DNA of 41,712 bases. Origin: Acidobacteriota bacterium (GTDB lineage Bacteria > Acidobacteriota > Thermoanaerobaculia > UBA5066). Positions 16,119 through 41,712 of the stretch are shown piece by piece. Location of the stretch: contig JAKOVQ010000024.1 in NCBI GenBank assembly GCA_029781975.1, positions 1 to 41,712 on the forward strand, in the 5' to 3' direction. The translations under genes and the position numbers were made by a program. The notes under the pieces were generated by a model. That model did not search any database. It was not told the DNA's origin and worked only from the letters and a program-made list of their open reading frames with translations. Every line of letters begins with the position of its first letter. Positions within the stretch are counted from its first letter, which is position 1.

Positions 16119-16847
16119 TCAATGGCCCTTCGGTCCCATGGGGGAGCCGCCGTGCGAACTGCCCCCGTGGCTCTGGGGCGTCTTCCCGCCCGGCGCCGCG
16201 CCCGGCATCCCGTGCTCCGATCCGGAGGACATGCCCGTCCCGCCGTGCACTCCCCAGGAGTGCTCGCTCATCCCCATCGACCTCATGGGCACCGAGTGCG
16301 GTTCCGCCATTGGGCCGAACGTGCACGCCTCGTCGGCCCGCACGAGGAGTGGAGCGGCGCCGGCCTTCATCGACCTCACCTCCACCGTTCCCTCGAAGAC
16401 GGCGAGGAGCGAGCGCCCGTCCTTCGCCACCTCCAGCCCGTACCGCGTCCCGCGGACGGCGAGGAGGGCTCCGGGCGCGGCGACCGTCCGCGCATCGGCG
16501 GAGCCGTCGGTCAGCGCCTCGAAGAAGGCCTTGATGCGCCCTCGCTCCACCGTGAGAAGGACGGCAGGGGTCCCGGCCGCGAGCCGGGCGCGCGTGTTCG
16601 AGCTGATCTCGAAGCGCGCTTTCCGCTCCGGCACGGAGAGCACCGCCTTTCCCCAGAACCCGGTACGGACGAGGTCTCCGGCCAAAGCCGCGTCCCCGGC
16701 GGCGACCCGCACCTCGGCGGCCTCGTCGCCTCCCGGGGCACGCAGCACCTTGCTCTTCACCTCGTCGAAGCGGTAGGCCGGCGTCCCGGGCTCGATCGCG
16801 GCCAGGATGCCGGCGGCGAGCGCGACCAGCGGCAGGATGAGCTTCAT
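16119..16847 (-). CDS. FecR-domain protein with Met/His-rich tail
   Basis: 242 residues from ATG 16847, overlapping the regulator stop (ATGA). A signal peptide or anchor (about 1-18) precedes a FecR domain (about 25-150, LVRTGFWGKAVLSVPERKARFEISSNT, then LLAVRGTRYGLEVAKDGRSL). The C-terminal part is rich in Met, His, Ser and Gly (MRSMGMSEHSWGVHGGTGM, GSSHGGSPMGPKGH), which would bind soft metals. FecR proteins are often paired with CHASE2 proteins in other bacteria, as here. It may sense periplasmic metal and talk to the CHASE2 kinase; inference from co-location. Confidence 0.82.
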   Translation of the reverse strand: MKLILPLVALAAGILAAIEPGTPAYRFDEVKSKVLRAPGGDEAAEVRVAAGDAALAGDLVRTGFWGKAVLSVPERKARFEISSNTRARLAAGTPAVLLTVERGRIKAFFEALTDGSADARTVAAPGALLAVRGTRYGLEVAKDGRSLLAVFEGTVEVRSMKAGAAPLLVRADEACTFGPMAEPHSVPMRSMGMSEHSWGVHGGTGMSSGSEHGMPGAAPGGKTPQSHGGSSHGGSPMGPKGH

Positions 16848-25516: not shown

Positions 25517-25649
25517 GGGGGGTCTCGTCCTCGCCTCCGGAGAGGAGGGCCTCGGAGCCCTCCTCGCGGGTCCGGATGCGAATGGCACGCTCGAGCGGGA
25601 GGGCGAACATCTTCCCGGGTGGCAGGACCACAGGCTGGCGTTGCGTCAT
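25509..25649 (-). CDS. Possible 46-residue protein between the PII-like and ATPase genes
   Basis: ATG 25649 begins 11 bases after the PII-like stop and the stop TGA overlaps the ATPase ATG (ATGGCTGA). The product has basic and acidic parts (LERAIRIRTREEG) and no recognisable domain. The tight fit to neighbours argues for a real gene; a weak ribosome site (GGGA) argues against. Confidence 0.4.
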   Translation of the reverse strand: MTQRQPVVLPPGKMFALPLERAIRIRTREEGSEALLSGGEDETPHG

Positions 25650-25660: not shown

Positions 25661-25990
25661 TCAGACCGCGGCCTCGCCGCGCACGCCCGTCCTGATCCGG
25701 AGGACGTCCGTCACCTCGCAGACGAAGATCTTTCCGTCGCCGCAGTGCCCGGTGTGGGCGGCCTGTGCGATGACCTTAACGGCCTCCTCGAGCGTCTCGT
25801 CGAGGACGACGAGCTCGATCTTCGTCATCTTCGACTCCTCGGAGCGCTCGCAGGGAGTTGGGGTGCAGTCGCAGCGAGAGAAGACGTGCACCGTCGACAC
25901 GGTGAGCCCAGGCAGGTGAGGCAGCTCGTGAAGCCTGTCGATGACCTGGTCTGCCATGAACGGCTGCACGATGGCCTTGATCTCTTTCAT
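25661..25990 (-). CDS. PII-like protein of the metal-efflux-linked group (PII-NG)
   Basis: 109 residues. The fold signature is clear: MKEIKAIVQPF at the start, and the C-terminal HTGHCGDGKIFV of PII proteins. The T-loop region lacks the uridylylation tyrosine and instead has CDCTPTPCERSEES, a Cys cluster that could bind metal. A distinct PII group next to RND metal-efflux genes has been described as PII-NG; this gene fits by sequence and by location between the RND pump and a P1B ATPase. It probably senses metal or nucleotides and regulates the pump or ATPase. It begins 9 bases after the pump stop. Confidence 0.85.
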   Translation of the reverse strand: MKEIKAIVQPFMADQVIDRLHELPHLPGLTVSTVHVFSRCDCTPTPCERSEESKMTKIELVVLDETLEEAVKVIAQAAHTGHCGDGKIFVCEVTDVLRIRTGVRGEAAV

Positions 25991-25999
25991 GACCTTCTC

Positions 26000-28900: not shown

Positions 28901-29083
28901 CTGCTCGACGTCGACGGCGGCGAGCCCCGGGGCCTTCGACAGGATCATGACCTGGGTGTTCGTCACGTCGGGAAAGGCGTCGATGGGGAGGCGAGTCCAG
29001 GCGACGACGCCCAGGGCGATGAGGAGCGCGGTGCCGAGGAGGACCAGGAGCCGGTTCTTCAGGAGGACCTTGACGAGTTCCAT
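26000..29083 (-). CDS. RND heavy-metal efflux pump, CzcA/CusA family
   Basis: 1027 residues from ATG 29083; longer in-frame starts would overlap the adaptor. The protein is a full-length RND pump: an N-terminal span, two large periplasmic loops and two six-span bundles. Membrane motifs GMVVDASIVVVENIRRHL carry the conserved Asp/Glu used for proton coupling. The CusA methionine triad is not visible at the matching places (EGSIAVNVV, GPEQTDVFV, RVNELISG), which speaks against strict Cu/Ag selectivity; divalent metals are more likely. It follows the adaptor gene after 14 bases. Confidence 0.92.
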   Translation of the reverse strand: MELVKVLLKNRLLVLLGTALLIALGVVAWTRLPIDAFPDVTNTQVMILSKAPGLAAVDVEQRVSYPIEQVMRGLPSVKQVRSLSKAGLSQVVIIFEDGVETYWTRQVVFERLSLAREQLPPGVEPELGPLSTGLGEIYQYTLEGDGKSAMDLRTIQDWIVSPLLKPIPGVNEVNSFGGEVKQYQVLVSPEKLLKYNLTVGEVVEAVEQGNANAGGGVIVRGWEQVYMRGVGLLKDIPDIERTVLKAVDGSPVYVRDVADVVIGAEPRQGAVSRDGKGEVVAGMIIMLKGSNSQDVVSRVKATVEKVKTTLPPGVRLNVFYDRTSLIEACIKTVVDALLEGGIFVILILFLFVAEFRTALIVVFSLPLTFLVSFIVMGSTGLTSNLMSLGGLAFSVGMVVDASIVVVENIRRHLAHQTAKEHKRRVVAEALVEVARPVAFSVIIIAIILVPLFTLQGVEGKMFAPLAATMLIALLVSLVVALTVIPVLSEMFLQQVPEKEFGFIRRLHQGYVRLLGHAVRRPAVTLGLSGGVLVVSLALLPLMGTEFMPPLDEGSIAVNVVRLPNASLEGSVKVAQFMEKRLLKFPEVETVVSKTGRAEISEDPMGPEQTDVFVMLKPRKKWGTGRNKAELVEAMQKDLSEIPGLRFSFSQPIALRVNELISGVKSDLAVKVFGPDLEVLKTFADRAAAELMKIEGARDVKVEQVSGMSQLDVVVDREALARHGIKIGDVNATIETAVAGRHATTLIEEQRRFAVVVRFPESARTDIPELERLLVPAPGGERVPLGQLARFTVVEAPAQVSRENGMRRVVAEANIRGRDLGGFVAEAQKRIAPFAKQLPSGYYVEYGGQFENQQRAMRQLAIVVPVALLLILVLLYLALGSVWNSLLVLLNLPFALVGGVIAVIAFQMPVSVSAAVAFIVLLGIAVQNGVVLVAFFRQLREQGETVADTVIKGCEVRFRPLVMTALTSFIGHLPMLYATGSGADIQKPLAVVVMGGLITSTILTLLVLPTLYSLFANRFAAVEAEAEL

Positions 29084-29097
29084 GGCGTGCAGCCCCC

Positions 29098-30447
29098 TCA
29101 GTCCGCGCAGCCCGCGCCCATCTTCGAGCGCAGGACGTCGGACTTCATGAGGAAGGCCCCCTCGGCGACGACGGCCTGCCCCGGCTGGAGACCCTTCTTG
29201 ACCTCGGCCCACCCGGCCCAGGTCCGCCCGACCGTGACGGGACGGCGGACGTAGTAGTCGCCCTTGTGGTGAACGAAGACGAAGGAACGCCCCTCGTCCT
29301 CGAGGACGGCGTCACGGGGGATCGCGAGCGCCTCGTCGGTGCCCGGGAGGTACAGCTTGACGTTGGCGAACATCCCCGAGAGCAGGTGTCCCGCCCGGTT
29401 CCGGACCTCGACACGGACCTTCACGGTCCGGGAGGACTCCTCCATCGCCTGCGTGACGAGGTCGACGGCTCCGGCGAACTCCTCGTCCGGGTAAGCCTTC
29501 ACGGAAACCGAGGCCTCGAGCCGCCCGGCGGACTGTCCCCGGGTGACGGAGAGGATGTCCCGCTCGTAGAGGTCGGCCCAGACCCACACCGTCGAGTTGT
29601 CGCCGACCGTGGCGAGAGACTGGTCGGTCTTGGCCGTTTCGCCCGGCACGGCGTGCAGGGTCAGGACAAGGCCGTCCATCGGGGAGCGGAGGACTATGCG
29701 TCCGCCGGCAGTGGCGCTGGTGAGGGCTCGCGCGTCCGCGCCGCTGGCGCCGAGGCGCGTCAGGGTTCCGAGCGCATTCGCGGCGCGGATCTCCGCGGTC
29801 TCGAGCTCCTGTCTGGCCTGGAGGCTCTCCTTCTCGGAGGAGATGTTCTCCTTGCGCAGCTCGGTGAGCCGCTCGAAGTTCCGGCGGGCCAGCGCGAGCA
29901 GGCTCTGGGCCTCGAGCCAGGCCGCCTGGGCCTCTCCGACCGCGACGCTCTCGATCTCGACGAGCGGCTGGCCCTTCCTCACCCTGTCGCCCAGCGTGAC
30001 GTGGGTCGCCCGGACGATTCCTTCCACCTGAGAGCTGACATGGCTGACGCGGCGCTCGTCGAATCGGACCTCACCCGTCAGGGTGACTGGAACGGCGACC
30101 TTCTTCCGTTCTGTCTTCACGGTCGTGATGAGGCCGCCTTCGGTGAGGCTCGACGGCGCACGCACGAAGCCCGTCTCGTAGCGACACTCGTCGCACTCGA
30201 ACGTCTTCTTCTTGTGCTCGCAGGTGAGGGAGACGAGCTCTTCGACCGGCCGGTCGAGATCCGAAGGCTCCCCGGCCTCGGCGTTCTCCGCGTGGCCCTC
30301 GTCCGAGTGGGCCTCGTGGCCGTCTCCGGAGCCGGCCTTCGCCTGGGCGGCCTCTGGCGCCGGGGCGGGGCTGGCTTTCTTGCAGGAGGTGGCGGCAACC
30401 GGGGCGATGGCCGCGAGAAGGATGCATGTCAGGATTCGGCTGTTCAT
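29098..30447 (-). CDS. RND efflux periplasmic adaptor (CzcB/CusB family), lipoprotein
   Basis: 449 residues from ATG 30447, overlapping the upstream stop (ATGA). A lipobox-like signal (APVAATSC, Cys at about 22) suggests lipid anchoring. A His/Glu-rich stretch (GDGHEAHSDEGHAENAE) and a Cys motif LTCEHKKKTFECDECRYE precede the usual barrel-hairpin-lipoyl layout (ITTVKTERKKVAVPVTLTG, then VEGIVRATHVTLGDRVRKGQPL). The Cys/His parts probably bind the exported metal. It links pump and outer-membrane factor. Confidence 0.9.
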   Translation of the reverse strand: MNSRILTCILLAAIAPVAATSCKKASPAPAPEAAQAKAGSGDGHEAHSDEGHAENAEAGEPSDLDRPVEELVSLTCEHKKKTFECDECRYETGFVRAPSSLTEGGLITTVKTERKKVAVPVTLTGEVRFDERRVSHVSSQVEGIVRATHVTLGDRVRKGQPLVEIESVAVGEAQAAWLEAQSLLALARRNFERLTELRKENISSEKESLQARQELETAEIRAANALGTLTRLGASGADARALTSATAGGRIVLRSPMDGLVLTLHAVPGETAKTDQSLATVGDNSTVWVWADLYERDILSVTRGQSAGRLEASVSVKAYPDEEFAGAVDLVTQAMEESSRTVKVRVEVRNRAGHLLSGMFANVKLYLPGTDEALAIPRDAVLEDEGRSFVFVHHKGDYYVRRPVTVGRTWAGWAEVKKGLQPGQAVVAEGAFLMKSDVLRSKMGAGCAD

Positions 30448-31754
30448 GGGAGTTCCTCTCCGGCCAGGGCGCTGAGGCGGCTGCAGTCCAGCTGGGCCTG
30501 CGCGAGCGCGTTCAGGTAAAGGCGGCGCGAGTCGAGAAGGGTCCGACGGGCGTCGATCACCGGGAGAAGGCTCGCCTCGCCCAGCTGGTAGGTTCGTTCC
30601 ATGGTGAAGGCGGCGGTCTCGGAGCGAGGGACGATTGCGTCCCGGAAGCGCTTCGCGGTGGCCACGGACGCGCTGCACGCCGCCTGGGCCTCGATGACGG
30701 TCGTTTCGACCTCGAGGGCCGTTGCCTCGGCCTGCCTGCTGCCGGAGGCGAGCTTCGCCTCGGCCTGGGCGATACGCCCCGTGTTCCAGTTCCAGACCGG
30801 GATGTCCACGGAGATGCCGACGCCGTAAGCCTTTCGGTCGAGCTCGTCCGTGGCGAATCCCCGGAGGGAGAAGGACGGGATCGGAGCCTTGCGCTCGGTC
30901 TTGACGTCCGCCGCAAGGACCCGTGAACGAGCGCTCACGATCATCAGCGCAGGGTCCGCTGACCGTGCCCTGGCGAGGGCGGCCTCGCGGCCCAGAACGG
31001 CAGGAAGAGCAGCCAGGTCGGCGTTCGCAGCCAACGCCTGGCCCGGCGGCACGGCGAGCCATCGGGCGAGCGCCGTCTGTCGGGCCAGAAGGAGTGTCCG
31101 TGCGGCCTCGAGCTCGGCCGTGACCTTCTCGAGCTCGATCTCGACCAGCGGGGCTTCGACGGGCCGAACCTCCCCGGTTTCGACGCGCCGCCTGACGGTC
31201 TGCGCCAGTTTCGAAGTCTGGGCCACGAGGGTCTCGAGGACGCCCACCCGGGCCTGCTCGTAGGCCAGACCCCAGAAGAGCGTCCGGAGCTGGAGCAGGA
31301 CGTCCCGCCGGGAGGCCTTGCTCTCCGCGAGAGCGACGTCCACCTCGGCGCCGGCCGCCTCGAGCTTCGACCCGCGTTGCGCGATCCACCCGAACGGGAT
31401 GCTCAGAGCCAGCTCGCTCTCGGCGCGCGACTCGTCGCCGGTCCGTGCCTGGCCGTGTCCGAGCCCGGCTTCAAGGGTGGGGTTGGGAATGGCGCCGGCA
31501 GCGTCCACTCCCTTTCGGGCCGCCAAGATCTGATGCTGGTCTGCAGCCAGGCGCGGGTGAGTTTCGGCGAGCCTGACGACGTCGGGCCAGGACAGCTCGA
31601 GGACCGCCGGGGAGGCTGACGCGGCAACTATTGCAGCTGCGTTGGCCGGTTCCGACGGACCGGGGGAGGCGGATGCCGAGCCTGCAGCGACGAGAACGAT
31701 CCCAAGAATGTGGACGTGCCACCAATGGGACCCGCGGAGGGGAATGGAATACAC
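30444..31754 (-). CDS. Outer-membrane efflux factor (CzcC/CusC/TolC family)
   Basis: 436 residues from GTG 31754, which has AGGAG seven bases upstream; a TTG at 31775 in frame lacks one. A signal peptide (about 1-32) precedes two OEP repeats with long helices (SWPDVVRLAETHPRLAADQHQI, and RARSADPALMIVSARSRVLAADVKTERK). The domain ends in the helical DARRTLLDSRRLYLNALAQAQLD. It is the outer-membrane channel of the tripartite pump. Confidence 0.88.
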   Translation of the reverse strand: MYSIPLRGSHWWHVHILGIVLVAAGSASASPGPSEPANAAAIVAASASPAVLELSWPDVVRLAETHPRLAADQHQILAARKGVDAAGAIPNPTLEAGLGHGQARTGDESRAESELALSIPFGWIAQRGSKLEAAGAEVDVALAESKASRRDVLLQLRTLFWGLAYEQARVGVLETLVAQTSKLAQTVRRRVETGEVRPVEAPLVEIELEKVTAELEAARTLLLARQTALARWLAVPPGQALAANADLAALPAVLGREAALARARSADPALMIVSARSRVLAADVKTERKAPIPSFSLRGFATDELDRKAYGVGISVDIPVWNWNTGRIAQAEAKLASGSRQAEATALEVETTVIEAQAACSASVATAKRFRDAIVPRSETAAFTMERTYQLGEASLLPVIDARRTLLDSRRLYLNALAQAQLDCSRLSALAGEELP

Positions 31755-31862
31755 CTTCGGACTCCTGCTTTCCAAGGACGCCCGTCTCGGGCGTCGTCGT
31801 TGCGCCTGGGCCGGGTCCGCGCGCGATGCGCGGCGTCCCGGCGGTCTCTCGAGAAGAGAGCG

Positions 31863-32195
31863 TCAGGCGCGAGGAGGGTGGAAGATGCTGTGAAGGACGC
31901 CCTTCGGACGAAGGTCGTCGTGAGCTTCGAGCTCGAACTCGCTCGAGGGAGGATTTCCGACAGAGGGTCGGGGCGCGAAAACGGCGAGGCCGTTGGCGTG
32001 ACCGGGGCAGCAGAGGCACAGGCAGGTCGGCCCGCAGGGCTGGCCGTCAGTCCCCGGGTCGGGACACGAGTCGGCGGCCTGCGGAGCCGTCTGGCCGTTT
32101 CTCACGGAGGAGTGCAGTACCTCGTCTGCCGTCGCGAGGCTCGAGCCGGCGACAAAGACGAACAGAATGATAAGGGCGAGGGCTCGCCGATTCAT
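31863..32195 (-). CDS. Small Cys-rich secreted protein of the efflux operon
   Basis: 110 residues from ATG 32195, overlapping the regulator stop (ATGA). A signal peptide (about 1-23, ending SLATAD) precedes a Cys cluster (DSCPDPGTDGQPCGPTCLCL, then CCPGHAN), and the tail contains several Pro, Asp and His. I know of no named family; short Cys-rich proteins just upstream of CusC/CzcC genes occur in other bacteria. The Cys cluster would bind soft metals in the periplasm. A gap of 108 bases follows before the outer-membrane factor. Confidence 0.75.
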   Translation of the reverse strand: MNRRALALIILFVFVAGSSLATADEVLHSSVRNGQTAPQAADSCPDPGTDGQPCGPTCLCLCCPGHANGLAVFAPRPSVGNPPSSEFELEAHDDLRPKGVLHSIFHPPRA

Positions 32196-32608
32196 GCTCG
32201 TGCCCGCTGGTCCGATATGTGGCACGCGCAGTCATCGAGCAGGGCGACCACGAACGGCGCCTGGAGCGAATAGTGAACGAGCTTGCCCTCCGAGCGAGAA
32301 CGGACGATCCGGAGGTCCCGCAGCTGATGGAGCTGGTGCGAAGTGGCCGAAACCGAGAGCCCGATGACTTCAGCGATCTCGCATACGCACAGCTCGCCTC
32401 CGGCGAGGGCACGGATCATCTTCACCCGGGTCGGATGGGCCAGGACCTTGAACGTCTCGGCGACTCCCCGAAGCTCCGAATCCGGGGGAAGTGCCGCACG
32501 TCCACGGCGCACGCGAGCCTCGTCGACGCGAAAGACAGCGCACTTCTCGGCCCGCCCGGTTCTTCCGTGATGGGGTCTCGCCGGTCTGGAGGTTGTCGCT
32601 CGGGTCAT
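32192..32608 (-). CDS. ArsR/SmtB-family (CadC-like) metal-responsive repressor
   Basis: 138 residues from ATG 32608. A TTG at 32635 lies inside the -10, so is excluded. The winged helix has the alpha-3 metal site C74-V-C76 in ELCVCEIAEVIGL and the recognition helix SVSATSHQLHQLR. An N-terminal Cys (C23) and a C-terminal DDCACH could add ligands; this is like CadC (Cd/Pb/Zn). It is the first gene of the efflux operon and would repress it until metal binds. The next gene overlaps by ATGA. Confidence 0.9.
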   Translation of the reverse strand: MTRATTSRPARPHHGRTGRAEKCAVFRVDEARVRRGRAALPPDSELRGVAETFKVLAHPTRVKMIRALAGGELCVCEIAEVIGLSVSATSHQLHQLRDLRIVRSRSEGKLVHYSLQAPFVVALLDDCACHISDQRARA

Positions 32609-32625
32609 CGCGCGGCTCCCGCCTC

Positions 32626-32663
32626 GCTTGAGCAAGCATAGAAATGAGCCGCCGGCGTGTCAA
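32626..32663 (-). promoter_or_regulatory. Efflux-operon promoter with ArsR-type operator
   Basis: On the minus strand -35 TTGACA (32663-32658), a 17-base spacer, -10 TATGCT (32640-32635), a near-consensus sigma-70 promoter. The 12-base dyad GCTTG-ct-CAAGC (32637-32626) overlaps the -10 and the expected start near 32628, an apt place for an ArsR-type repressor. It sits 20-55 bases upstream of the repressor ATG. Confidence 0.82.
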
Positions 32664-32993
32664 CGCGGAGGGCGGGAAGCGACTCGCCTTCAACGCGGGT
32701 GACCTGGGAGTCGGTCTCATCGGCGATTCCCAGACCATGGGAAGGAAGTCCGATTCGAGGCGGGGCCCAGGACTGCTGTGAAGCGTCGACAGGCGGCTTC
32801 GGGGTCGTGAATCCGCGCCGGTAGGGTCCGTGAAAAGCCCCTTGCATCTGGCTCAGGTTTCGCCTAAGAAGAATCGGCGTGGGTATCTATTTCCGTCGTC
32901 CAAAGCTATCCGTAGATACCCGCGGAAAGAAGCGTGCCAGCGTAAATCTATGAAATATGGCTAGTTGCGGCTGTCCGCAGACGGAGGTGCCGT
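32664..32993. other. Non-coding stretch between efflux promoter and att repeat
   Basis: No gene with a credible ribosome site or family resemblance. This is the right end of the metal block, up to the tRNA-derived repeat. I see no integrase remnant in it. Confidence 0.45.
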
Positions 32994-33042
32994 ATGGGGT
33001 TCAAGGGGTCGCGGGTTCGAATCCCGCCGTCCCGACCATCTA
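32994..33042 (+). repeat. Left att repeat: nt 32-76 of tRNA-Pro(GGG) plus TCTA
   Basis: 49 bases identical to 41512-41560. It starts exactly at the anticodon loop (ATGGGGT, anticodon GGG), then TCAAG as the 3' anticodon stem, GGGTC, a T arm GCGGG-TTCGAAT-CCCGC, the acceptor CGTCCCG, A73 and CCA. The bases before it do not supply the matching CTTGA stem or a CGGGACG acceptor, so no complete tRNA exists here. Confidence 0.9.
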
Positions 33043-33056
33043 TAAACAAAGGACTT

Positions 33057-33081
33057 AGCGCCCCGCGAGGGGCGCTTTTTC
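33057..33081 (+). terminator. Rho-independent terminator after the left att repeat
   Basis: Perfect 8-bp stem AGCGCCCC / GGGGCGCT, loop GCGA, then five T. It lies 15 bases past the tRNA-like CCA end and would terminate the tRNA transcript. The right copy has its own terminator at 41579. Confidence 0.85.
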
Positions 33082-33242
33082 GTGGCAGGAAAAGGCGGAC
33101 CGTGCCTTTCCCGTGGCTTAGCGGCTGGATTTCGGGGGACACCCCGTAGTCTTTGCCGGCTGCCTCGCCTGGCCCGCGCAGCCGTATCCGCAGAGGGCGT
33201 CACGGCGTCCGCGTCCCATGCCTCAGGTAAGCTGCGTGAATC

Positions 33243-33473
33243 GTGTCGATTGAGCGGGACTTCGATATCGGGTTCATCGCCGGCCAAGCGCTCCGCGAAA
33301 AGCAGATTCAACAGAACTACCGACCCGTTATCGCGGTCCACAAGTGGTTCGCCCGGAGACCGGGGAGCCTCTTCCGAGGGCTCGTGCTCGCTGAGTTCGG
33401 TTCGCGTCCCGTCCGAGAGGCGTTCTTCTCTGCTAACCATTTCGGAGGGAGAAAGATAGCCGATCCTTTCATG
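33243..33473 (+). pseudogene. Truncated DNA methylase (N-terminal fragment cut at DPFM)
   Basis: About 77 residues from GTG 33243 match the start of COG1743/DUF1156-type adenine-specific DNA methylases (REKQIQQNYRPVIAVHKWFA, then RRPGSLFRGLVLAEF, then KIADPFM). The family continues DPFxGxGT, its SAM-binding motif; here the match stops after DPFM at 33473 and becomes unrelated sequence (ESPSPRD). The break coincides with the stop codon of the convergent gene (33469-33471). The fragment is intact in frame, so the loss looks recent. It sits at the left end of the element, a usual place for swapped cargo. Confidence 0.72.
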
Positions 33474-33984
33474 GAGAGTCCGTCGCCGCGGGACTCGTCT
33501 CCTCGAAGGCCGGAGCGGCGGCCGGGGCCGGCGATGACACGGAGTAGTCCGTGACGGGGACTTCCGAGGCGCGGTCACAACTGATCCGCCCGCCCGACAT
33601 CGTGACGACGAATCGGAGCGGCGCCTTGCCCTCGGCCTCCCGGACGTCGGAGCGGAGTTTCACGAGAAGCTCGACTATCTTCGTCAGCTTCCCGATCGCG
33701 TCGAGGGCCGTCCGGAGGTCCTCGGCCTCCTCCGCCTTCCGCCGGATGCGGTGAGCGTCCTCGGCGAGGCCCCGGACGGCGTCGAGGAGCGAGTCGGCGC
33801 GCGCCGTCTCCTTCGCCTCCTTCGCCTTCACGAGCCCTGCTGCGACGTGCTGACGGTGTCTGTCGAGCGCGCTTTTCGTCGTCCCGGTTCGTCCCGCGAT
33901 GTCCCGGATAGGCTCCTGAGCGACGAGGGCCGCATCAATCTCGTCCCGCTTCGCGTGAGTGCAGACGGTACAGGTCCGAGCCAT
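33469..33984 (-). CDS. Small CxxC and HTH-like protein of the element
   Basis: 171 residues. The N-terminus has a CTVCTHAKRDEIDAAL motif (CxxC, possible zinc knuckle) followed by a helix-turn-helix-like segment (DIAGRTGTTKSALDRHRQHV). The middle is a Lys/Glu/Leu-rich helix and the tail is Pro/Ser-rich. It might bind DNA, in the manner of small terminase subunits or of replication accessory proteins, but I cannot name a family. It starts two bases after the upstream gene's stop. Confidence 0.6.
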   Translation of the reverse strand: MARTCTVCTHAKRDEIDAALVAQEPIRDIAGRTGTTKSALDRHRQHVAAGLVKAKEAKETARADSLLDAVRGLAEDAHRIRRKAEEAEDLRTALDAIGKLTKIVELLVKLRSDVREAEGKAPLRFVVTMSGGRISCDRASEVPVTDYSVSSPAPAAAPAFEETSPAATDSP

Positions 33985-33985
33985 C

Positions 33986-34444
33986 TCAGGCAGCCCCCCT
34001 CTCCGAGGCCGTAGGCGCTTCCGTGGGGCGAGCGAGAGCCGGCGACGACGTCGGGCCGGCCGCGGCCGGGAGCGAGCCGGGGAGGCGCCCCGCCGCGAAG
34101 AGGAGGGCTTCGAGGCGCGGGAGTTTCGCCCGGCGCGCCTCGACGTAGAGCCTCTGGCGAGCCTCAGCCTCGGGGGTCAGGCGGACCCACCGGCGCTCAT
34201 CGGAAAGCCGGTCCGTCTCGGTCGCGAGCGCGAGGAATGCGCGGCGCCGCGAGGACCTCTCGGAGGTCTCCGCCCTCAGGTAGAGGGAATGGGCCTTCAG
34301 CTCACGGAGAAGCGCGTCGAAGATGGCCGGGTCATTCAGGGCGCGGCGGATGAGGAGGCGCGAAGGGGGCGGGACCCTCTCCGCCCGTCGCACAATGCCC
34401 CACGCGCGCCACGGAGAGGCGGGCCAGGGAGTCCGAGGGGTCAC
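33986..34444 (-). CDS. Element protein of unknown function
   Basis: 152 residues from GTG 34444, overlapping the upstream stop (GTGA). Arg- and Leu-rich helical. The stretch LLIRRALNDPAIFDALLREL resembles VLRRALTDPAILDAVLSE of the protein at 37016-37390, so the two may be distant paralogues. No catalytic motif is seen. The overlap chain with the neighbours supports its reality. Confidence 0.62.
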   Translation of the reverse strand: MTPRTPWPASPWRAWGIVRRAERVPPPSRLLIRRALNDPAIFDALLRELKAHSLYLRAETSERSSRRRAFLALATETDRLSDERRWVRLTPEAEARQRLYVEARRAKLPRLEALLFAAGRLPGSLPAAAGPTSSPALARPTEAPTASERGAA

Positions 34445-34905
34445 GGCGTGGTCCTCCTGAAAGCGGTCACGGTTCCGTCGAGGGCCTTCTTCGCGAGGAA
34501 CGCCGCTCGGAGCGCCTCGGCGTCTCCGTCGGCGAGGATGTCGAGTTCCCCCCACGTGAAGCGGACGAGGCCGGCGACGTGGAAGGGGACCGCCGTTTCG
34601 GCGTCGCGGGTCCAGAGGACGGTCTCCCCGAGGACCCGCGAGCGGATGGCGACCCATCCCCGCCCGTTCGGCCCGAGGGCCTGCCGGATGCGCGCGACCG
34701 GATGGAAGGGGACGACGGGGGCGAGGGGACGGACGGCACGGAGCGCCGCGAGGACCTCGCCGCGGTGCGCTCGCACGAGGGAGAGGGCCTCCTCGACAGC
34801 GGGGGACGGAGGATTCGGGACGTCCGCTTCGAGAGCGCCGGCCGACGTCACGGCGAGGCGGATTCCGAGAGCGGGGAGGCGGTCGAGGATCTCAGCGGCA
34901 ATCAA
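34441..34905 (-). CDS. TubC-like docking domain protein
   Basis: 154 residues from TTG 34905, overlapping the primase stop (TTGA). The first 60 residues (EILDRLPALGIRLAVTSAGA and LVRAHRGEVLAALRA) resemble the TubC N-terminal docking domain, which is also seen in proteins of mobile elements near primases. The rest (VPFHPVARIRQALGPNGRGW) is not known to me. It may couple to the primase product; this is inference from overlap and position. Confidence 0.62.
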   Translation of the reverse strand: MIAAEILDRLPALGIRLAVTSAGALEADVPNPPSPAVEEALSLVRAHRGEVLAALRAVRPLAPVVPFHPVARIRQALGPNGRGWVAIRSRVLGETVLWTRDAETAVPFHVAGLVRFTWGELDILADGDAEALRAAFLAKKALDGTVTAFRRTTP

Positions 34906-37019
34906 AGGGCGACCCTCCTACGTTCGGCCACTTCAACGGACGGAGGCGGAGGTCCGGCCGGCGCGTCGTCATCCGACCCCACGACGAGGCGGATTCGGGC
35001 GGGCACCTCCGCGCTGTCGTCTGTCTTCCCTCTGGGAGCCGGAACGGTCGGAACGGCGGAACGGAGTGAGGAGCCATGCGGGTCCAGCCGTTCCGACCCC
35101 CCCGGAACGGAACCGGGAACGGGGTCGGAACGGTCGGCCCCCTCCTCCCGAACGACGGCCGGGACGTACCGGGCCGCGGCGTCGAGGATGGGGTCTCGGC
35201 GATACCCGCCGCGGGGTTCGGCGCCGTGACTCCAACGCTTCTTCTGCGGCGAGATCCGGAAGGCCCGGAGGAGCGCGGCGAGGCCGGCGGCGTCGAGCCC
35301 GTCGCCGTGGTTCCAGCGCTTCCACGGCGTGCCCTCCGTCGCGTGAAGCTCTCGGACGAGCGTGTCAGTCGTCGCCCCGGCGGGACTCCCGAGGCGCTGG
35401 AAGACGGTCACGAGATCCCGGAGAAGCCCAACGCCGACCGAGTCCTCCGCCTCGTCCTCCGCGGCGTCCGCCGCCAGGGCGACGAGGGCCTCCCGAGCGC
35501 GGGCAGGCCATTCCCCGCCCACGAGGTCCGCGATCGCGAGGAGGGGCTCCGCGGCGTCCTGCGCCCTGTCATTCAGGGCGTCCGGCAGGGCGGGGTCGGC
35601 CTTGCGGAGCGCCTCGATGCGGCCGGGCACGGCGAAGAACGCCTCCGCCTGACGAGCGAGCGCCTCGGCCTCCGGCGTCGCCTTCCGGCTCCGGAAGCGC
35701 TCGCGGGCCTCGTCGCGTCGGGCGCGACGAAGCGTGACGACGAAAGAGCGGTCCTTCACCGTGGCGGGCGGGTCCGCGATCCCCGCGAGGACCTTCGGGC
35801 CGAAGACCTCGAAGTCGAGAAGCTCTTTCCCGTGCTCCGCACATCGGGAGACGACGATCCCGCGGGAGAAGCCCGCGTTCAGGGTCGCCCGGATTCCCTC
35901 CGTCGAGTCCTTCGCGGCGGCGGAAAAGATCGTGTCGTACTCGTCGAGGAAGAGCGTCGCGCCGGTCGTGAGCTTCCGGAAGAGGATGGCCTCGGAGGGT
36001 CGAACCGTGTACCACGGCCGCGGCGCGAGACGCTGGAGGACCTCCATGAGGCGGGACTTCCCGCAACGGCGCTCGGGAGAGGTAATGCAGAGGTACGGGG
36101 TCACGTCCGCGGCCTCGATGGCGTGGGCGTGAAGGACCCAGAGGGCGCACGTCACGGCCTGGTCCTCCGTGAGGATCACGAAGCGGCGGATGAAGCGCAC
36201 GACGTCGGCGAGGAGGTCCCCTCCCTTCGGGACAGCGACGGGCGCCCACGCGGGCGCGGCGTCTCCGAGAGCCTCGATGGCCTCACGGGTCCCGCCGGCC
36301 TCGATCCAGTCGGAGACGTCCTTCCCGCGGGGGACCCGAGCGACGCGCACGGAAGCGGCGACGCCGTGAAGGGCCACGGCGACGGCCTCGCCGTGCTTTC
36401 GGCCCGGCTCGTCCGCGTCGGGGAGGATGACGACGTGCGCGCCGCGGAGGGCCTCCGAATGGCCGGGGAGCCACTTCCCGGCGCCTCCGGGGTTGCAGGT
36501 CCCGCAGAGCCCGAGCCGCGCGAGGCTCTCGGCGTCCTTCTCGCCCTCGACGACGTAGACGCGGGCGCCGTCCTTCGCGGCGGAGAGGACCTCGGGGAGG
36601 CGGAAGAGGACGCGCCGGACGCCGTCGAGATTCCAAAGGAAGGCGCCGGCCTTGGCCGGATCGGGGCGCCGCTGCCGGAAGTCCTTCGGCTTCATCCGGA
36701 CGACCTCGAAGAGAAGCGCGCCGGCCTCGTCCCGGTAGGGATAGCGCGCGACGACCTCGCCGCGCCCCTTCTTCGCGGGCGCCTTCGGCTCCTCCGGGAA
36801 GAGGTCGCGCATGGTGAGGCCGAGGGCCGCGAGGACGTCGGACGTCTCGCAGCCGGCCCGGCAGAGAAGGACGGCCTTCCCGTCCTTCTCCGCGACGCCA
36901 AGGCTCGCCTTGTGGTCCTCGTGCGCGGGGCAGCGGGCCTCGTAGCCGGAACCGCTCGGCCTCGGGCGGAGGTCCTTCTCCTGGAGAGCCGCGAGGACGC
37001 GCGCGAGCGGCGCGGTCAA
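34902..37019 (-). CDS. Primase/helicase of the element (CHC2, TOPRIM, DUF3631-like)
   Basis: 705 residues from TTG 37019, with GGAGAGGAG 6-7 bases upstream and a TTGA overlap with the previous stop. The zinc finger is CPAHEDHKASL and LLCRAGCETSDV (CHC2 type), then a TOPRIM part (VYVVEGEKDAESLARLG, VVILPDADEPG), then a helicase-like DUF3631 region: YLCITSPERRCGKSRLMEVL (Walker-A-like), LFLDEYDTIF (Walker-B-like). The C-terminal quarter carries a cluster of GGAACG repeats. It would prime and unwind DNA to replicate the element once excised. Confidence 0.87.
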   Translation of the reverse strand: MTAPLARVLAALQEKDLRPRPSGSGYEARCPAHEDHKASLGVAEKDGKAVLLCRAGCETSDVLAALGLTMRDLFPEEPKAPAKKGRGEVVARYPYRDEAGALLFEVVRMKPKDFRQRRPDPAKAGAFLWNLDGVRRVLFRLPEVLSAAKDGARVYVVEGEKDAESLARLGLCGTCNPGGAGKWLPGHSEALRGAHVVILPDADEPGRKHGEAVAVALHGVAASVRVARVPRGKDVSDWIEAGGTREAIEALGDAAPAWAPVAVPKGGDLLADVVRFIRRFVILTEDQAVTCALWVLHAHAIEAADVTPYLCITSPERRCGKSRLMEVLQRLAPRPWYTVRPSEAILFRKLTTGATLFLDEYDTIFSAAAKDSTEGIRATLNAGFSRGIVVSRCAEHGKELLDFEVFGPKVLAGIADPPATVKDRSFVVTLRRARRDEARERFRSRKATPEAEALARQAEAFFAVPGRIEALRKADPALPDALNDRAQDAAEPLLAIADLVGGEWPARAREALVALAADAAEDEAEDSVGVGLLRDLVTVFQRLGSPAGATTDTLVRELHATEGTPWKRWNHGDGLDAAGLAALLRAFRISPQKKRWSHGAEPRGGYRRDPILDAAARYVPAVVREEGADRSDPVPGSVPGGSERLDPHGSSLRSAVPTVPAPRGKTDDSAEVPARIRLVVGSDDDAPAGPPPPSVEVAERRRVAL
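35041..35132. repeat. GGAACG repeat cluster in the primase gene 3' end
   Basis: GGAACG or its complement occurs seven times in 92 bases, three of them at 9 and 8 base steps (35041, 35050, 35058). The same 9/8 spacing occurs at 39848-39870 and nearby in the opposite orientation. Confidence 0.55.
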
Positions 37020-37390
37020 CGGGCGCTCCTCTCCGGGACCGCCGCCCACGCTAGGAGGACCGACATCGACAGCCAGTCGGACGCGGGAAGGTGCAGGCGC
37101 ACGTCGCGACGGGTCCGCCTGTAGGCGGCGAGACGACGCTCCGCCCTCGCCGTCCACGGCCGGGGCTCGCGAGCGGCGAGGAGGAGCGTGCGAGCCTTCA
37201 CGACGAGGGCGCGGCTCTCGGGGGAGCCCGCGTCGGCCTCCGAGAGGACCGCGTCGAGGATGGCGGGATCGGTCAGGGCGCGGCGAAGGACGCCGCGGGC
37301 GTACGGAGGGCGACCCGAGACGCGCTTCTGCGGCGTCGCCTGACGGGGGGTCCGCGGAGACTCGCCGCGGGTCGTCTGCTTTCTCGTCAT
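37016..37390 (-). CDS. Element protein of unknown function, upstream of primase
   Basis: 124 residues from ATG 37390. Basic throughout, with RGVLRRALTDPAILDAVLSE and a C-terminal Arg/Leu helix. It resembles part of the protein at 33986-34444. The stop overlaps the primase start (TTGA). Possibly a DNA-binding or primase partner; unproven. Confidence 0.62.
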   Translation of the reverse strand: MTRKQTTRGESPRTPRQATPQKRVSGRPPYARGVLRRALTDPAILDAVLSEADAGSPESRALVVKARTLLLAAREPRPWTARAERRLAAYRRTRRDVRLHLPASDWLSMSVLLAWAAVPERSAR

Positions 37391-37428
37391 ACCTCTTCTC
37401 CTACTTGCCGTGAACGGTTGACGACGGG

Positions 37429-37644
37429 TCAGGCGACCCGCTTCCGGGCCGCGGTCTCCTCGGACGTGTTCGCGAAGCTGCGCTCGGCCTCCCACGCCTC
37501 GACGTCGGCGATGCGATAGACAGCCCTGTTCTTCGCGATCCGGACGTACTTCGGGCCGCCGCCCTTGACGCGCCACATCCGGACGGTGCCGGGCTTGACA
37601 CCGAGCATCGCCGCAAGCTGACTCGTGCTGATTCGGGTCTCCAT
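37429..37644 (-). CDS. AlpA/excisionase-type HTH protein
   Basis: 71 residues with an N-terminal MerR-like helix-turn-helix: STSQLAAMLGVKPGTVRMWR (about 6-25), then the wing GGGPKYVRIAKNRAVYRIADVEAWEA. This is the usual HTH_17 layout of AlpA-like regulators and excisionases. It precedes the replication genes and probably regulates them or directs excision. Confidence 0.78.
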   Translation of the reverse strand: METRISTSQLAAMLGVKPGTVRMWRVKGGGPKYVRIAKNRAVYRIADVEAWEAERSFANTSEETAARKRVA

Positions 37645-38041
37645 CGGTCCTCCTCGTTCGTTCTGCGGCGATCAGCGCCGCTGCGTGGAAAGCCTTGGCC
37701 AATTCGCGTTTGTCAGCCGGGGTCGAGTGGGGTTTCTTCGTCTCTGCCGGAGAAGCCCCGTAGTCGAGTCGTTTGTCAGGTGGCGCGCGTCGGTTTCCTC
37801 GCTCGACGAATCGCCAAGAGCGGACCCGCGGCGGCATCCCGCCGACAGCTCGTCTCCCGCGGGCACAGCGCCGCCCGCCGTGGTCGTCCCGTGTGCAAGG
37901 AATCGGCGCCGAGATGCGCGCGATTCAACCGCTACTGCATGACGCAAATCTGCCATATACGGACGCCTCGGGGAAGAGGTCGGGCTCTACGCGACAGGCG
38001 GGAGAGAACGGGGAGCCGGTCGGACCGGCTCCTCTCGCCCG
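37645..38041. other. Intergenic region with a 10-base direct repeat
   Basis: No credible gene in 397 bases. CGTTTGTCAG occurs at 37707-37716 and 37770-37779, 63 bases (six helical turns) apart, which could be operator sites for the HTH proteins on either side. On the minus strand the repeats read CTGACAAACG, similar to a -35. Probably the control region of the replication operon. Confidence 0.45.
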
Positions 38042-38305
38042 TCATGCGGCGTCCAGCTCGGGGCCGCCGGGCGACACCTCCGCCACCTCGCCGGCCGCCC
38101 TCGCCTCGCGCTCGCTGAGGTACGCCTCGACAGCGCTCTCCCGGTAGAACACGCGGCCGGACTCGCTCCGCGACCAGCCGCGAGGGCCGTGCCCGCTGAG
38201 GCGCCAGCGATGGAGCGTCTTCTCCGCGATCCCGAGACGTTCCGCGACGGCCGGCGCCGGGATCAGAGAGTCGGGCTTCACCTTCGGGGCCTTCGTCTTC
38301 GTCAT
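38042..38305 (-). CDS. Second HTH_17/excisionase-type protein
   Basis: 87 residues from ATG 38305. The HTH is PAPAVAERLGIAEKTLHRWR, then the wing GWSRSESGRVFYRESAVEAYLSE. It is paralogous in layout to the protein at 37429-37644. One may be the excisionase, the other a repressor; I cannot tell which. Confidence 0.76.
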   Translation of the reverse strand: MTKTKAPKVKPDSLIPAPAVAERLGIAEKTLHRWRLSGHGPRGWSRSESGRVFYRESAVEAYLSEREARAAGEVAEVSPGGPELDAA

Positions 38306-38404
38306 CGCTCCTCCCGCTCGCTCCGGGAAAGGGGCCGCGGGAGCGCGCTTCCGTGCGCACGGGGGCCGGCACGTCGCACGGAAGGCGCTCCCGCGGCCGA
38401 GTCG

Positions 38405-39031
38405 TCAGACCTTGAACCGCTCTCCCGTCTTCGGGTACGGCACGCGGACGTCGTCGCACCAGCCCCCGAGGAGGCCCGTCTCCCGCGCCGCCTGCTCCGC
38501 CGTCATCCCCGCGTGACCGACGCTCCAGAACGGCGGGACGATGACCGAATCCTCCCCCTCGAAGGGGCGAAGCTCGGCCGCCGCGGCCTCGGCCGCGCTG
38601 CCCTTCTCCGCCATCTCCTGAAGGGCGTTGCCGGTCGCCAGGAGAGCTGGCGTCACCTTCGCCTGAGCCTCCCGGAGCCTTTCGACGGCCGCCGTGTAGC
38701 GCTCGCGGGCCTCCCGGTGCTCCTTCTCCCGCACGAGCCCGGCGCGCTCGGCCTCCGCCTCCGCGAGAAGACGCGACAGCGCGGAGATCCGCTCCGACAG
38801 CCGGCGGGCCTTCGTCTCTTTCGTGACGATGGCGGCCTCGTGCTCCTCCGGGTCGGCGCCGCCGTCGAGGGCCTCCCGAAGCGCCCCGCGGGCCTCCGCG
38901 ATCGCCGCTTCCGCACGGGCTTTCTCGTCCGTCGCCGCGTTGAACCTCTCGCGCAGCTCCGCCGCACGCCTCTCCGCTCGCGCGAGCGGTCCTCCGGTCA
39001 CCGCCTCCAGGGCGGCCTTGATCTTCACCAC
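38405..39031 (-). CDS. Coiled-coil protein of the element
   Basis: 208 residues from GTG 39031, one base after the upstream stop. About 15-140 is a long Ala/Glu/Arg-rich coiled coil (heptads in RLSERISALSRLLAEAEAER). The C-terminal end (VIVPPFWSVGHAGMTAEQA) is compact and different. No family recognised. The gene lies between an unknown protein and an HTH gene. Confidence 0.62.
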   Translation of the reverse strand: MVKIKAALEAVTGGPLARAERRAAELRERFNAATDEKARAEAAIAEARGALREALDGGADPEEHEAAIVTKETKARRLSERISALSRLLAEAEAERAGLVREKEHREARERYTAAVERLREAQAKVTPALLATGNALQEMAEKGSAAEAAAAELRPFEGEDSVIVPPFWSVGHAGMTAEQAARETGLLGGWCDDVRVPYPKTGERFKV

Positions 39032-39032
39032 C

Positions 39033-39323
39033 TCAGCTCCTCCTCATCGTCCGGGCCTGGAGCACCTCCAGGGCTTCCGGAATCGTCAGTCCCTCGTCGT
39101 TCGCCACGCGGAACGCCTCCGTCATGAACTCGTCCCGCGTGCAGTCCATCCCCGGCACGAGCTCCCGGCCGGGGTGCCGCGGGTCCGCCTGAGTCCTCGC
39201 CGCGATCGCCTTTCCCCGCGAAGAGAGCTCCAGGACCCTCCCGCCATGAAGCCGGGCCTCCGGTTGCGTGGAGAACGTCTCCCGATGTTCTCCGTCCAGG
39301 ATCTCAAGCCACACCGTCCCCAT
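39033..39323 (-). CDS. Small acidic protein of unknown function
   Basis: 96 residues from ATG 39323, with GGGAGGAG directly upstream; GTG 39347 adds eight residues but has no such site. No known motif. The segment 39324-39642 upstream holds no gene; it has an A/T-rich patch near 39410-39440 that could include a promoter for this minus-strand group. Confidence 0.55.
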   Translation of the reverse strand: MGTVWLEILDGEHRETFSTQPEARLHGGRVLELSSRGKAIAARTQADPRHPGRELVPGMDCTRDEFMTEAFRVANDEGLTIPEALEVLQARTMRRS

Positions 39324-39642
39324 TCGCTCCTCCCTCACCTTCCACACACCCCCCGGCGCCTTCCCGTCAACGGGACGTGTCCGCCTTTGTCCGCCTTCGA
39401 GCCCCTCTCTTGTCTACATACGCTCGAAGCCCGTTTTGCAACCCCCGCGCCGCTCTTTTTTCGCTCAGACCGTCGATTCGCCCCGCGGAGGACTCCGGGA
39501 GGCCCGCTCTCGTGCGAAATCCACAGGGAGCGCCGACCCCCCGGCACGGTCCTCGAAGCGTGGGGGCGTCGGTTCGATCCCGTGGGGCGTCGATCGCCGG
39601 CCGTGGGGAGCGTTCCGCCCCGCTACCCCGACCCGCGGGACG

Positions 39643-40086
39643 TCACGAGCGCCCCCCGTCCAGGCCGCGGAGACCGTTCCGGGGGACGTCCGGCGCGAGG
39701 AGCGAGTCTTCGTAGTCGCTGAGGATCTTCCGGAGCCACCAGCGCGCCGCGGCCTCCGGCGTCTCGCCCCGCGGGGTGTTCCGGAGGAGGAGGGCCGCCT
39801 CCTCGCCCGCGAGGTCGAGCCGGAGCGTCAGGCGAGGGCCGCGAGGGCGTTCCGCCGTTCCGGGCGTTCCGACCCCCCCTCGAAATCGAGCACAAGGGTT
39901 CGGGCCGCTTGCCATCTCGTTCCGTTCCGCCGTTCCGGGCGTTCCGACGTCTCGGGAAGGCAGGCGCGTCTCGTCGTGGGGTCCGGTAAGATGTAGACGG
40001 ACCCCTTCCGGGGTTCGCCCCTCGGAGCCCGGCGCCGTGTTCCCCGCCAAGAGAGACGGCGTCGGGTTCTTCTTCTTTCTGGCCAT
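39643..40086 (-). CDS. Element protein with internal VGTPGTAER repeats
   Basis: 147 residues from ATG 40086, 21 bases after the integrase stop. The sequence VGTPGTAER appears twice because the gene carries two copies of a 25-base DNA repeat (39849-39873 and 39924-39948). The N-terminus is basic (MARKKKNPTPS), the C-terminal half is a helical segment (TLRLDLAGEEAALLLRN). No family recognised. Coding status is moderately supported by its place after the integrase. Confidence 0.52.
   Translation of the reverse strand: MARKKKNPTPSLLAGNTAPGSEGRTPEGVRLHLTGPHDETRLPSRDVGTPGTAERNEMASGPNPCARFRGGVGTPGTAERPRGPRLTLRLDLAGEEAALLLRNTPRGETPEAAARWWLRKILSDYEDSLLAPDVPRNGLRGLDGGRS
39849..39948. repeat. Two 25-base copies of a GGAACG iteron-like repeat
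   Basis: Positions 39849-39873 and 39924-39948 are identical over 25 bases, 75 apart. Each contains three CGTTCC units at 8 and 9 base steps, the mirror of the primase cluster at 35041. A further CGTTCC at 39918 extends the second set. Confidence 0.6.
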
Positions 40087-40107
40087 GTGGCCTCCTTTCG
40101 TTCGGCT

Positions 40108-41343
40108 CTAAGCGGTCCTCCGACCGGGGAAGGGGTAGACGGCCGCGACCTTCTCGGCGGCGGCCTTCACGGCGTCGAAGCCTTCCGGCGTGTAAACGGC
40201 GGCAGTCAGGTCCGGCGTGGAATGCCCGAGCGCCTCTTGAGCGACGCGGAGGCCGGCGGCGCGACTCATCCCGAGGCCGAAAGTCCTCCGGAGGTCGTGG
40301 AAGGTGACGCCTTCGAGGCCGGCGGCCGTCGCAATGCGATTCCATGCGCGCTTGATGTCGGGCCGGGGGCGCTCCTCCTTCTTCTTCCCCTCCTCGTCCT
40401 TCTCTTCGAGGCCACGGCCGGCGACGACGAACGCGCCATCTCGCGGGAGGTCGCGGAGGAAGTCCACGAGCTGCGGCACGAGGGGGAGGAGGCGGCGCTT
40501 CCCGCTCTTCGAGTCGGGGAGCGTCGCGCGCCCCTCGTCGAGGTTAACGTCGGACCAGCGGAGCCCGAGCGCCTCGCCGCGGCGCGCGCCGCCGAGGAGC
40601 GCGAGGAGGACGGCCGCAACGGCGTGCTGATCGGGGTCTGACGGGAGGACTGAGAGGAGCCGGGCGACCTCGTCGGGGGAGAGGACGCGAGCGCGGGGAG
40701 GGTTCTCTCGGCCAGCCTTCACGTTCGAGGCCGGGTTCCGCGTGAGGATCTCGGCGCGGACGGCGGCCTGAAAGCACGCGGCGACGACGGCGAGCCATCG
40801 GTTAGCGGAGGGCTCGCCCTTCTTCTCGCGGATCGCCGCGCGCTCGGCCTCGACGTCCTCAGCGCGGAAGACGTCCAGAGGACGAGCATTCCAGCGGGAG
40901 CGGATGTCGCGGAACGTCGGGTCGGTCGGCTCGCCCGTCTTCGCGTTCGTCCCGTCCGTGAAGCCGAGGAAGCGCCTATGAAAGGTCTCCTTCGTCTTCG
41001 TCGTCAGGCGCTCGAAGTACGTCTTCGACCACGCGCCCCACGTGGGAAGCGCCGGCTTCTCGGCGAGCAGGTCAACACCGGCGTCCGCGCTCTTGAGGTA
41101 CTTCTTCGCCTCGTCCCGCGCAGCGTCGAGAGTCCATGTCCCGTACCTCCCGATGGCCTTCATTCGGCGAATAGTCGTTCCGCGAACCGTGTACCGGACG
41201 GCAAAGGTCTTCGTGCCGTCGGCGTAGACGCGGAGGAGAAAGCCGGGCATGTCCCGATCGGCGTACCAGTCGCCCTTCTCGGAGCCCCCCTTGATGCTGT
41301 CGATCGTCCGTTTCGTGAACGTCCGGGCCGATCTCTTTCCCAT
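40108..41343 (-). CDS. int: Tyrosine recombinase integrase
   Basis: 411 residues from ATG 41343 with GGAGGAT upstream. A DUF4102-like N-terminal arm-binding domain (IGRYGTWTLDAARDEAKKYL), a SAM-like core-binding region, and the catalytic domain with R in GGARRGEALGLRW, HDLRRTF, GHSTPDLTAAVY: the R-HxxR-H-Y set is complete. The last motif's tyrosine is in AAVYTPEGF. It stands next to the right att repeat and probably inserts the element into tRNA-Pro. Confidence 0.92.
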   Translation of the reverse strand: MGKRSARTFTKRTIDSIKGGSEKGDWYADRDMPGFLLRVYADGTKTFAVRYTVRGTTIRRMKAIGRYGTWTLDAARDEAKKYLKSADAGVDLLAEKPALPTWGAWSKTYFERLTTKTKETFHRRFLGFTDGTNAKTGEPTDPTFRDIRSRWNARPLDVFRAEDVEAERAAIREKKGEPSANRWLAVVAACFQAAVRAEILTRNPASNVKAGRENPPRARVLSPDEVARLLSVLPSDPDQHAVAAVLLALLGGARRGEALGLRWSDVNLDEGRATLPDSKSGKRRLLPLVPQLVDFLRDLPRDGAFVVAGRGLEEKDEEGKKKEERPRPDIKRAWNRIATAAGLEGVTFHDLRRTFGLGMSRAAGLRVAQEALGHSTPDLTAAVYTPEGFDAVKAAAEKVAAVYPFPGRRTA

Positions 41344-41511
41344 CCGATCCTCCGTGCCGGCGCCGTGTCATGGGAGTGCGGTTCCGGCTCCATCGTGCCC
41401 TCGCCGTGCCTTACGAGTTTCGACGCGGAGAGACGGGAAGGCAACAGAAATCCGCTATAGAAGCGCACTAAGCGACGACGACCGGCAGGAGAAAGGCGCT
41501 GGACCTCGTGA

Positions 41512-41560
41512 ATGGGGTTCAAGGGGTCGCGGGTTCGAATCCCGCCGTCCCGACCATCTA
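41512..41560 (+). repeat. Right att repeat: nt 32-76 of tRNA-Pro(GGG) plus TCTA
   Basis: Identical to 32994-33042 over 49 bases. The five bases before it (CGTGA) pair with four of five in TCAAG, but no D arm or CGGGACG acceptor lies upstream, so it is not an intact tRNA gene either. Confidence 0.9.
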
Positions 41561-41578
41561 AATGCCGAAGATTCTGAT

Positions 41579-41600
41579 GCCACCGGGAACGGTGGCTTTT
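41579..41600 (+). terminator. Rho-independent terminator after the right att repeat
   Basis: Perfect 7-bp stem GCCACCG / CGGTGGC, loop GGAA, then four T, 23 bases after the CCA end of the tRNA fragment. I see no gene in the last 112 bases. Confidence 0.82.
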
Positions 41601-41712
41601 CCGTTCCTGGCGTGGCGTGTTCGTGTCCAGCGGGGTAGCCGTCGGCCGACCACGCCGACTACGCTCTTCGGGCTATTGCGCGAAGCCGCTGGAGAAGGAC
41701 CGGAACGCGCGC

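Follow-up and report, generated by a model that had tools for sequence, protein, structure and literature searches.

Integrative elements whose tyrosine integrases act at tRNA genes carry the 3' part of the gene in their attachment site (attP), and on insertion the gene is rebuilt on one side of the element and the old part displaced to the other. Tandem accretion of such elements is an already established mechanism, and a well-known bacterial route for collecting foreign genes at one safe address. In the part of the Islander description drawn on here, an island has the restored target gene on one side and is marked by the displaced fragment on the other (PMC4383910), and the concept of tandem accretion is attributed to Pavlovic et al. 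2004 on ICESt1, as cited in PMC4891358. Among the closest described systems are the ssrA islands of Dehalococcoides, in which tandem islands lie downstream of one essential RNA gene and a repeat of its 3' end bounds each of them (PMC3146451). Here we analysed a 41712-bp stretch of DNA from an Acidobacteriota bacterium (the window), which constitutes the complete contig C30 of a draft assembly of 54 contigs and 5.37 Mb. We conclude, with a probability of about 0.94, that the window covers the central part of an array of integrative elements that target a tRNA gene and stand in tandem, with probably three mobile DNAs having entered a single tRNA-Pro(GGG) gene, one behind another. In the following, G000 denotes the genome bearing the window, G001-G013 and further G numbers the compared relatives, and C a contig number.

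Two repeats on the plus strand of the window, at 32994-33042 and 41512-41560, agree at 49/49 bases, where about 4e-18 repeats of 49 bp would be expected by chance in 41.7 kb of this composition. Each begins at linear base 33 of the intact tRNA-Pro(GGG) gene (canonical position 32), where the anticodon loop starts, and extends through CCA. An ARAGORN search of the window returned zero tRNA genes, and both repeats are therefore bare 3' halves, the first forming the right end of island 1 and the left end of element 2, and the second the right end of element 2. The sole intact tRNA-Pro(GGG) gene of the genome with the repeat sequence was identified at G000:C42:14252-14328(-). A 45-base version of the half occurs four times in G000, comprising the two window copies, one copy within the intact gene, and one at C46:239-283 which is bare and has 1 mismatch. 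The sequence TCTA follows CCA in 3/4 of the genomic copies, and the match between the 41512 copy and the region of the intact gene spans 54 bp, starting at 41509. Upstream of the intact gene, C42 carries genes for MerR, Der/EngA and RNase R in the same order as in relatives, and C42 is therefore the native location of tRNA-Pro(GGG). A short GC-rich hairpin and T-run were also seen behind almost all copies of the half, whether native or carried by an element (e.g. window 33043-33085), as if the elements bring in a terminator to replace that of the tRNA.

Directly downstream of the intact tRNA, and in the same direction, lie an AlpA-like helix-turn-helix (HTH) gene (C42:13852-14082) and then tyrosine integrase 1 (C42:12561-13832; PF00589, 8.7e-34). 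C42 stops 14.2 kb downstream of the tRNA, and a split insertion sequence (IS) links its end to the start of the window. The first 201 bases of C42 and of the window both close with the 16-mer TTCAGCAGCCTGCTAG at 186-201, which in the window (186-201, plus strand) represents the right terminal inverted repeat of the IS; allowing up to 1 mismatch, this 16-mer was not found in the genome beyond C42:186-201 and C30:186-201. Moreover, the N-terminal stretch of a transposase runs off the end of C42 (C42:1-126, minus strand), and the window opens, at 3-44 on the plus strand, with the translated C-terminal stretch NLIRIARLEPAAT and its stop. An intact relative of this IS in G050:C92 measures 1306 bp, has the same kind of terminal repeats, resembles the C42 transposase at its N-terminus (44% over 41 aa), and possesses the C-terminal stretch FNLVRMARLERALAPA. 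On these sequence features, C42:1 and C30:1, placed head to head, carry the two ends of a single IS, of which about 0.9 kb is absent between the contigs. Island 1 then consists of a left part running from C42:14251 down to 202 and a right part at window 202-32993 (the metal block), and the sum of 14.25, 0.9 and 33.0 kb puts its length at about 48 kb.

Comparison with relatives revealed the homologous island in one piece. In G005:C36 (191 kb), a single contig spans the distance from an intact tRNA-Pro gene (3' half at 116279-116323) to a bare 45-base half (65540-65584), enclosing an island of 50.7 kb. This island possesses a C42-like integrase region (83%), C42-like genes (80-81%), and a block with 89% identity over 7.4 kb to window 25663-33038, including the Cus-type set. 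Similarly, G003:C69 holds the tRNA and a C42-like left part, and G003:C54 combines a ThiF gene like that at C42:197-2011 with part of the metal block and with the matching right end, including its bare half. The ends of the island also share short conserved sites. A putative arm-type site for integrase 1, GGTATCTA, lies at window 32882-32889 (plus strand), 112 bp before the tRNA half, and a putative second, inverted site, TAGATACC, at 32913-32920 (minus strand), 81 bp before it; these two spacings recur at the right ends in G000, G005, G003, G001 and G009. At the left end, GGTATCTA is found 68 bp past CCA and AGTATCTA at 80 bp in G000, G005, G003 and G013. Within the 145 kb of G000 searched, exact matches to GGTATCTA were limited to these three sites. 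Because k-mer overlap is by itself weak (2 seen vs 0.72 expected), the argument from these sites rests on their constant spacing across several genomes; integrase 1 may bind the GGTATCTA sites.

These data bear on the possibility that only the 8.5-kb element 2 is mobile, the metal block being ordinary chromosome and the repeat at 32994 merely the left end of that element. Such a reading would account for the lack of an integrase gene for the metal block inside the window, and for the distant homologues of its CusA-type gene elsewhere in the genome (C46, about 40%). However, it predicts an intact tRNA at 32994, where only a half is present, and it is at odds with the position of the G005 block inside a tRNA-bounded 50.7-kb island, with the match of the conserved arm-like sites in the right 112 bp to the left end on C42, and with the IS that ties the block to C42. 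We consider it very improbable, and on these same points a native chromosomal metal block was rejected in silico. For island 1, the intact tRNA on C42 and the displaced half at 32994 delimit the two ends, which in G005 occur on one contig. According to the original prediction, the intact tRNA-Pro(GGG) gene and a neighbouring integrase should be encountered leftward of base 1, and the C42 tRNA, its AlpA-like gene and tyrosine integrase 1 agree with this. Its description of both 49-base repeats, as starting at tRNA position 32, including CCA and lacking the 5' half, is borne out by the coordinates and by ARAGORN, and its placement of the metal block between attachment (att) copies as a tandem island finds support in the C42-C30 IS link and the complete G005 island. 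Neither of the observations named as refuting it was made: the intact gene lies on the left rather than the right, and the relatives that share the right part of the metal block (window positions of about 23.6-33.0 kb) carry it within the same att-bounded island.

To the right of element 2, the bare half on C46 points to probably at least one further element (element 3). Its probable left end occupies window 41561-41712, by comparison with G009:C371, and its other end is probably at C46:238. On G009:C371, sequences like window 41509-41611 and like C46:1-215 occur about 1.2 kb apart on one contig, suggesting that C30 probably joins C46 across a gap. Past its half, C46 shows a chromosome-like third-position GC of 0.91-0.99 in most genes, and two stretches of it are colinear with G005:C36 past the bare half of that contig, although the greater part of the C46 region compared has no such match. 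It is also conceivable that the array has two elements only, with host chromosome starting directly after window base 41560 and the C46 half being an unrelated old remnant; the mismatch and different downstream sequence of the C46 copy would be in keeping with this, as would the end of C30 just 152 bp past the second half. Given the proximity on one G009 contig of a start like window 41561 and an end like C46:1-215, and the colinearity of the two C46 stretches with G005, we regard this as unlikely. As to what element 3 might carry, AbiEi genes lie shortly before tRNA halves in G001 and G013, with AbiEii also in G001, and AbiE-like cargo is our guess. For the first gene of C46, the relatives offered distant homologues only (best 45%), and none of these was seen adjoining the tRNA. 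A separate observation concerns G001:C35 (2215-3927), where two tRNA-Pro halves lie just 1.67 kb apart with AbiEi/AbiEii directly before the first; no integrase was recognised in the interval between them, which is a possible integrase-less unit.

The proposed array would thus begin with the intact tRNA (C42:14328-14252), followed by island 1 (C42:14251-1, the IS over the gap, and C30:1-32993), the half at 32994, element 2 (33043-41511), the half at 41512, element 3 (C30:41561 over the gap to C46:238), the half at C46:239, and then probably host chromosome. For island 1 and element 2, this reading is carried by four att copies, one intact gene, an integrase in each unit, the C42-C30 link, and the complete homologous island of G005. 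In mechanistic terms, the attP of each element would hold the tRNA 3' half, and a tyrosine integrase would recombine it with the segment of the intact gene from anticodon loop to CCA. Insertion would rebuild the tRNA on the left and shift the former 3' half to the right as a bare attR, such that repeated insertions would stack elements; the direct repeats would in turn permit excision of one element or of several jointly. We infer the point of strand exchange, the function of the arm sites, the order of arrival, the current mobility of the elements, and the C30-C46 join. The tandem picture of the original prediction is retained with two amendments: counted from the tRNA, the metal block comes first and the 8.5-kb element second, and the C46 half would add at least one more element rightward.

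Several points weigh against the proposed array. The draft assembly places C42, C30 and C46 on separate contigs, and the C30-C46 join relies on one G009 contig together with weak G005 colinearity (two anchors). Most C46 genes tested are not near the tRNA in relatives, the right flank in G011 maps to G000:C2 rather than to C46, and the present mobility of the array elements is presumed. The G011 result implies that right-flank order is unconserved across the family, and the collection holds no empty site from the same species; in G002 and G010, with one tRNA-Pro copy each, there are no relatives of integrase 1 or 2 downstream.

The composition of the array in relatives is also informative with respect to its assembly. 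The metal island and element 2 could have arrived jointly, as a composite accreted in another host: their att copies are identical over 45-49 bp, permitting excision across the inner att, and composite transfer has been proposed for Dehalococcoides and Klebsiella islands (PMC3146451, PMC4891358). Yet in all relatives for which both sides were read (G005, G003, G009 and G001), DNA other than element 2 follows island 1, and cousins of element 2 occur singly at other tRNAs, rendering joint arrival improbable in our view compared with the successive stacking of independent elements. In G001:C71, the left end (integrase) and right end (paired sites) of island 1 are at most 5 kb apart with different cargo between them, which suggests that the ends act as a fixed chassis in which cargo varies. 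Between G003 and G005, the island flank past CCA is identical for about 260 bp, yet three T-arm bases of the tRNA differ at each end of the island, tracking the tRNA of each host. This pattern is compatible with donors of the same type or with subsequent homogenisation of the att copies, and it precludes mapping of the crossover to the anticodon loop or to the CCA end.

Protein domain searches (Pfam, PHROGs) suggest that the cargo of island 1 is a copper/silver-type block, i.e. that the island is a copper-resistance island. Pfam assignments in the metal block comprise a P-type metal ATPase with YHS and heavy-metal-binding domains (1905-4256, plus strand) and, all on the minus strand, a multicopper oxidase (14150-15541), a sigma-54 response regulator (16844-18229) and CHASE2 histidine kinase (18230-20038), a second P-type ATPase (23558-25588), and a Cus-type resistance-nodulation-division (RND) efflux set (26000-31775). 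The last consists of an AcrB/CusA family protein (26000-29212), an HlyD/CusB-type fusion protein (within the open reading frame, ORF, at 29098-31389), and an outer-membrane OEP protein (30444-31775), and is accompanied by an ArsR-type regulator (32192-32635, minus strand); heavy-metal-binding proteins are also encoded in the block. On C42, the island carries an extracytoplasmic function (ECF) sigma factor with a TPR kinase, two DUF4143 AAA ATPases, and a ThiF/JAB protein. A Pfam scan of the ORFs in C42:1-14251 and in the window, some small ones excepted, found neither relaxase nor type IV secretion genes. A search of genome contigs with integrase 1 gave one close match, on a contig of a metagenome-assembled Holophagales genome (98%; Holophagales belong to Acidobacteriota), the remaining matches being distant at 41% or less. 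Also identified was a 5-kb insertion at C42 7555-12576 relative to G003 and G005, in which a DUF4143 AAA gene is 92.6% identical to a gene in a 4.6-kb tRNA-Pro element of G011; the edges of the insertion are alike, 7443-7554 and 12256-12367 each matching G005 114306-114417.

Element 2 (33043-41511), a small integrative element, has exact tRNA halves on both sides and its own integrase. All of its recognised genes are on the minus strand, including a primase-helicase with Toprim-like and DUF3631 domains (34902-37157; Pfam, PHROGs), an excisionase/AlpA-like HTH_17 protein (38042-38305) 39% identical to its island 1 counterpart, and tyrosine integrase 2 with Arm-DNA-bind_3 and Phage_integrase domains (40108-41343; PF00589, 1.3e-21). 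Several further ORFs have neither a Pfam nor a PHROG match, among them a 171-aa protein (33469-33984, minus strand), a relative of which (47% over 110 aa) occupies the equivalent place in a tRNA-Ala element of G008. No arm-like motif common to both ends of element 2 was found above chance. Phage satellites combine integrase, AlpA-like regulator and primase modules, all of which element 2 possesses. No packaging or capsid gene was recognised in it by Pfam or PHROGs, and the viral contigs searched with integrase 2 yielded no relatives, hence no direct phage link.

Cousins of element 2 were identified in tRNA-Leu(TAA) of G008:C132 (about 7.3 kb, 88% repeat) and tRNA-Ala(CGC) of G008:C120 (7.6 kb, exact 25-bp repeat), both with the integrase at the far end as in element 2. 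A primase cousin of 7.5 kb in tRNA-Arg(TCT) of G004:C508 has a different integrase, beside the tRNA. The repeats of the cousins in tRNA-Ala and tRNA-Arg begin near the anticodon loop. We tentatively propose, as a possibility that we hold to be somewhat doubtful, that element 2 belongs to an undescribed satellite-like family of 7.3-8.5 kb in this Acidobacteriota family, in which the modules keep a single order (integrase, then HTH protein, then DUF3631 primase). Its members might have moved among anticodon-loop sites of tRNA-Pro, -Leu and -Ala (and -Arg with another integrase), and might line up next to large metal islands, whose mobilisation they could assist.

Bare or partly decayed tRNA-Pro(GGG) halves are present in 7/14 genomes searched in the family (G000, G001, G003, G005, G009, G011 and G013), and additionally in G030 and G039 of another family, with extra copies in G070 and G116 from a class-wide scan of 149 genomes. 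From the distribution of these copies, we interpret tRNA-Pro(GGG) as a recurrent stacking site, or hotspot, in this family. In G116:C28 (another family of the same class), an intact tRNA-Pro at 18-94 is followed on that contig, after 65.5 kb in the downstream direction, by a bare half, and further copies occur on C24 and C139.

Together, these results assign a large copper-efflux block from a little-studied phylum to an island that has an integrase and conserved ends, with one island chassis in the same tRNA of several genera of one family bearing differing cargo. Such islands allow the exchange of cargo between fixed ends to be compared cleanly in nature; also of value are the small primase elements, which use several tRNA targets. 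A limited search of open-access papers found no prior description of such an array in Acidobacteriota. With respect to known systems, element 2 is like small phage satellites, e.g. PICMIs (PMC10803314), in being small and in its integrase, AlpA-like regulator and primase, but unlike them is without a recognised packaging or capsid gene, a known helper phage, or a viral-contig match for integrase 2. The array follows the same principle as Islander-type tDNA islands, but is stacked and lies in a draft genome. The Dehalococcoides ssrA islands likewise have integration genes at the left edge and include some units apparently without their own integrase (PMC3146451); however, they use a tmRNA target, a 20-bp repeat and a serine recombinase, and carry reductive dehalogenase cargo, in contrast to the tRNA-Pro(GGG) target, 45-49-bp repeat, tyrosine integrases and copper efflux described here. 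Also alike are the Klebsiella asn tDNA islands, composites at one tDNA with unrelated integrases in their first and second parts (PMC4891358), although these belong to another phylum and tDNA, and no conjugation genes were found in the parts of the present array that were read. The array is a new example of tandem accretion, with a layout near those of the Dehalococcoides ssrA and Klebsiella asn islands.

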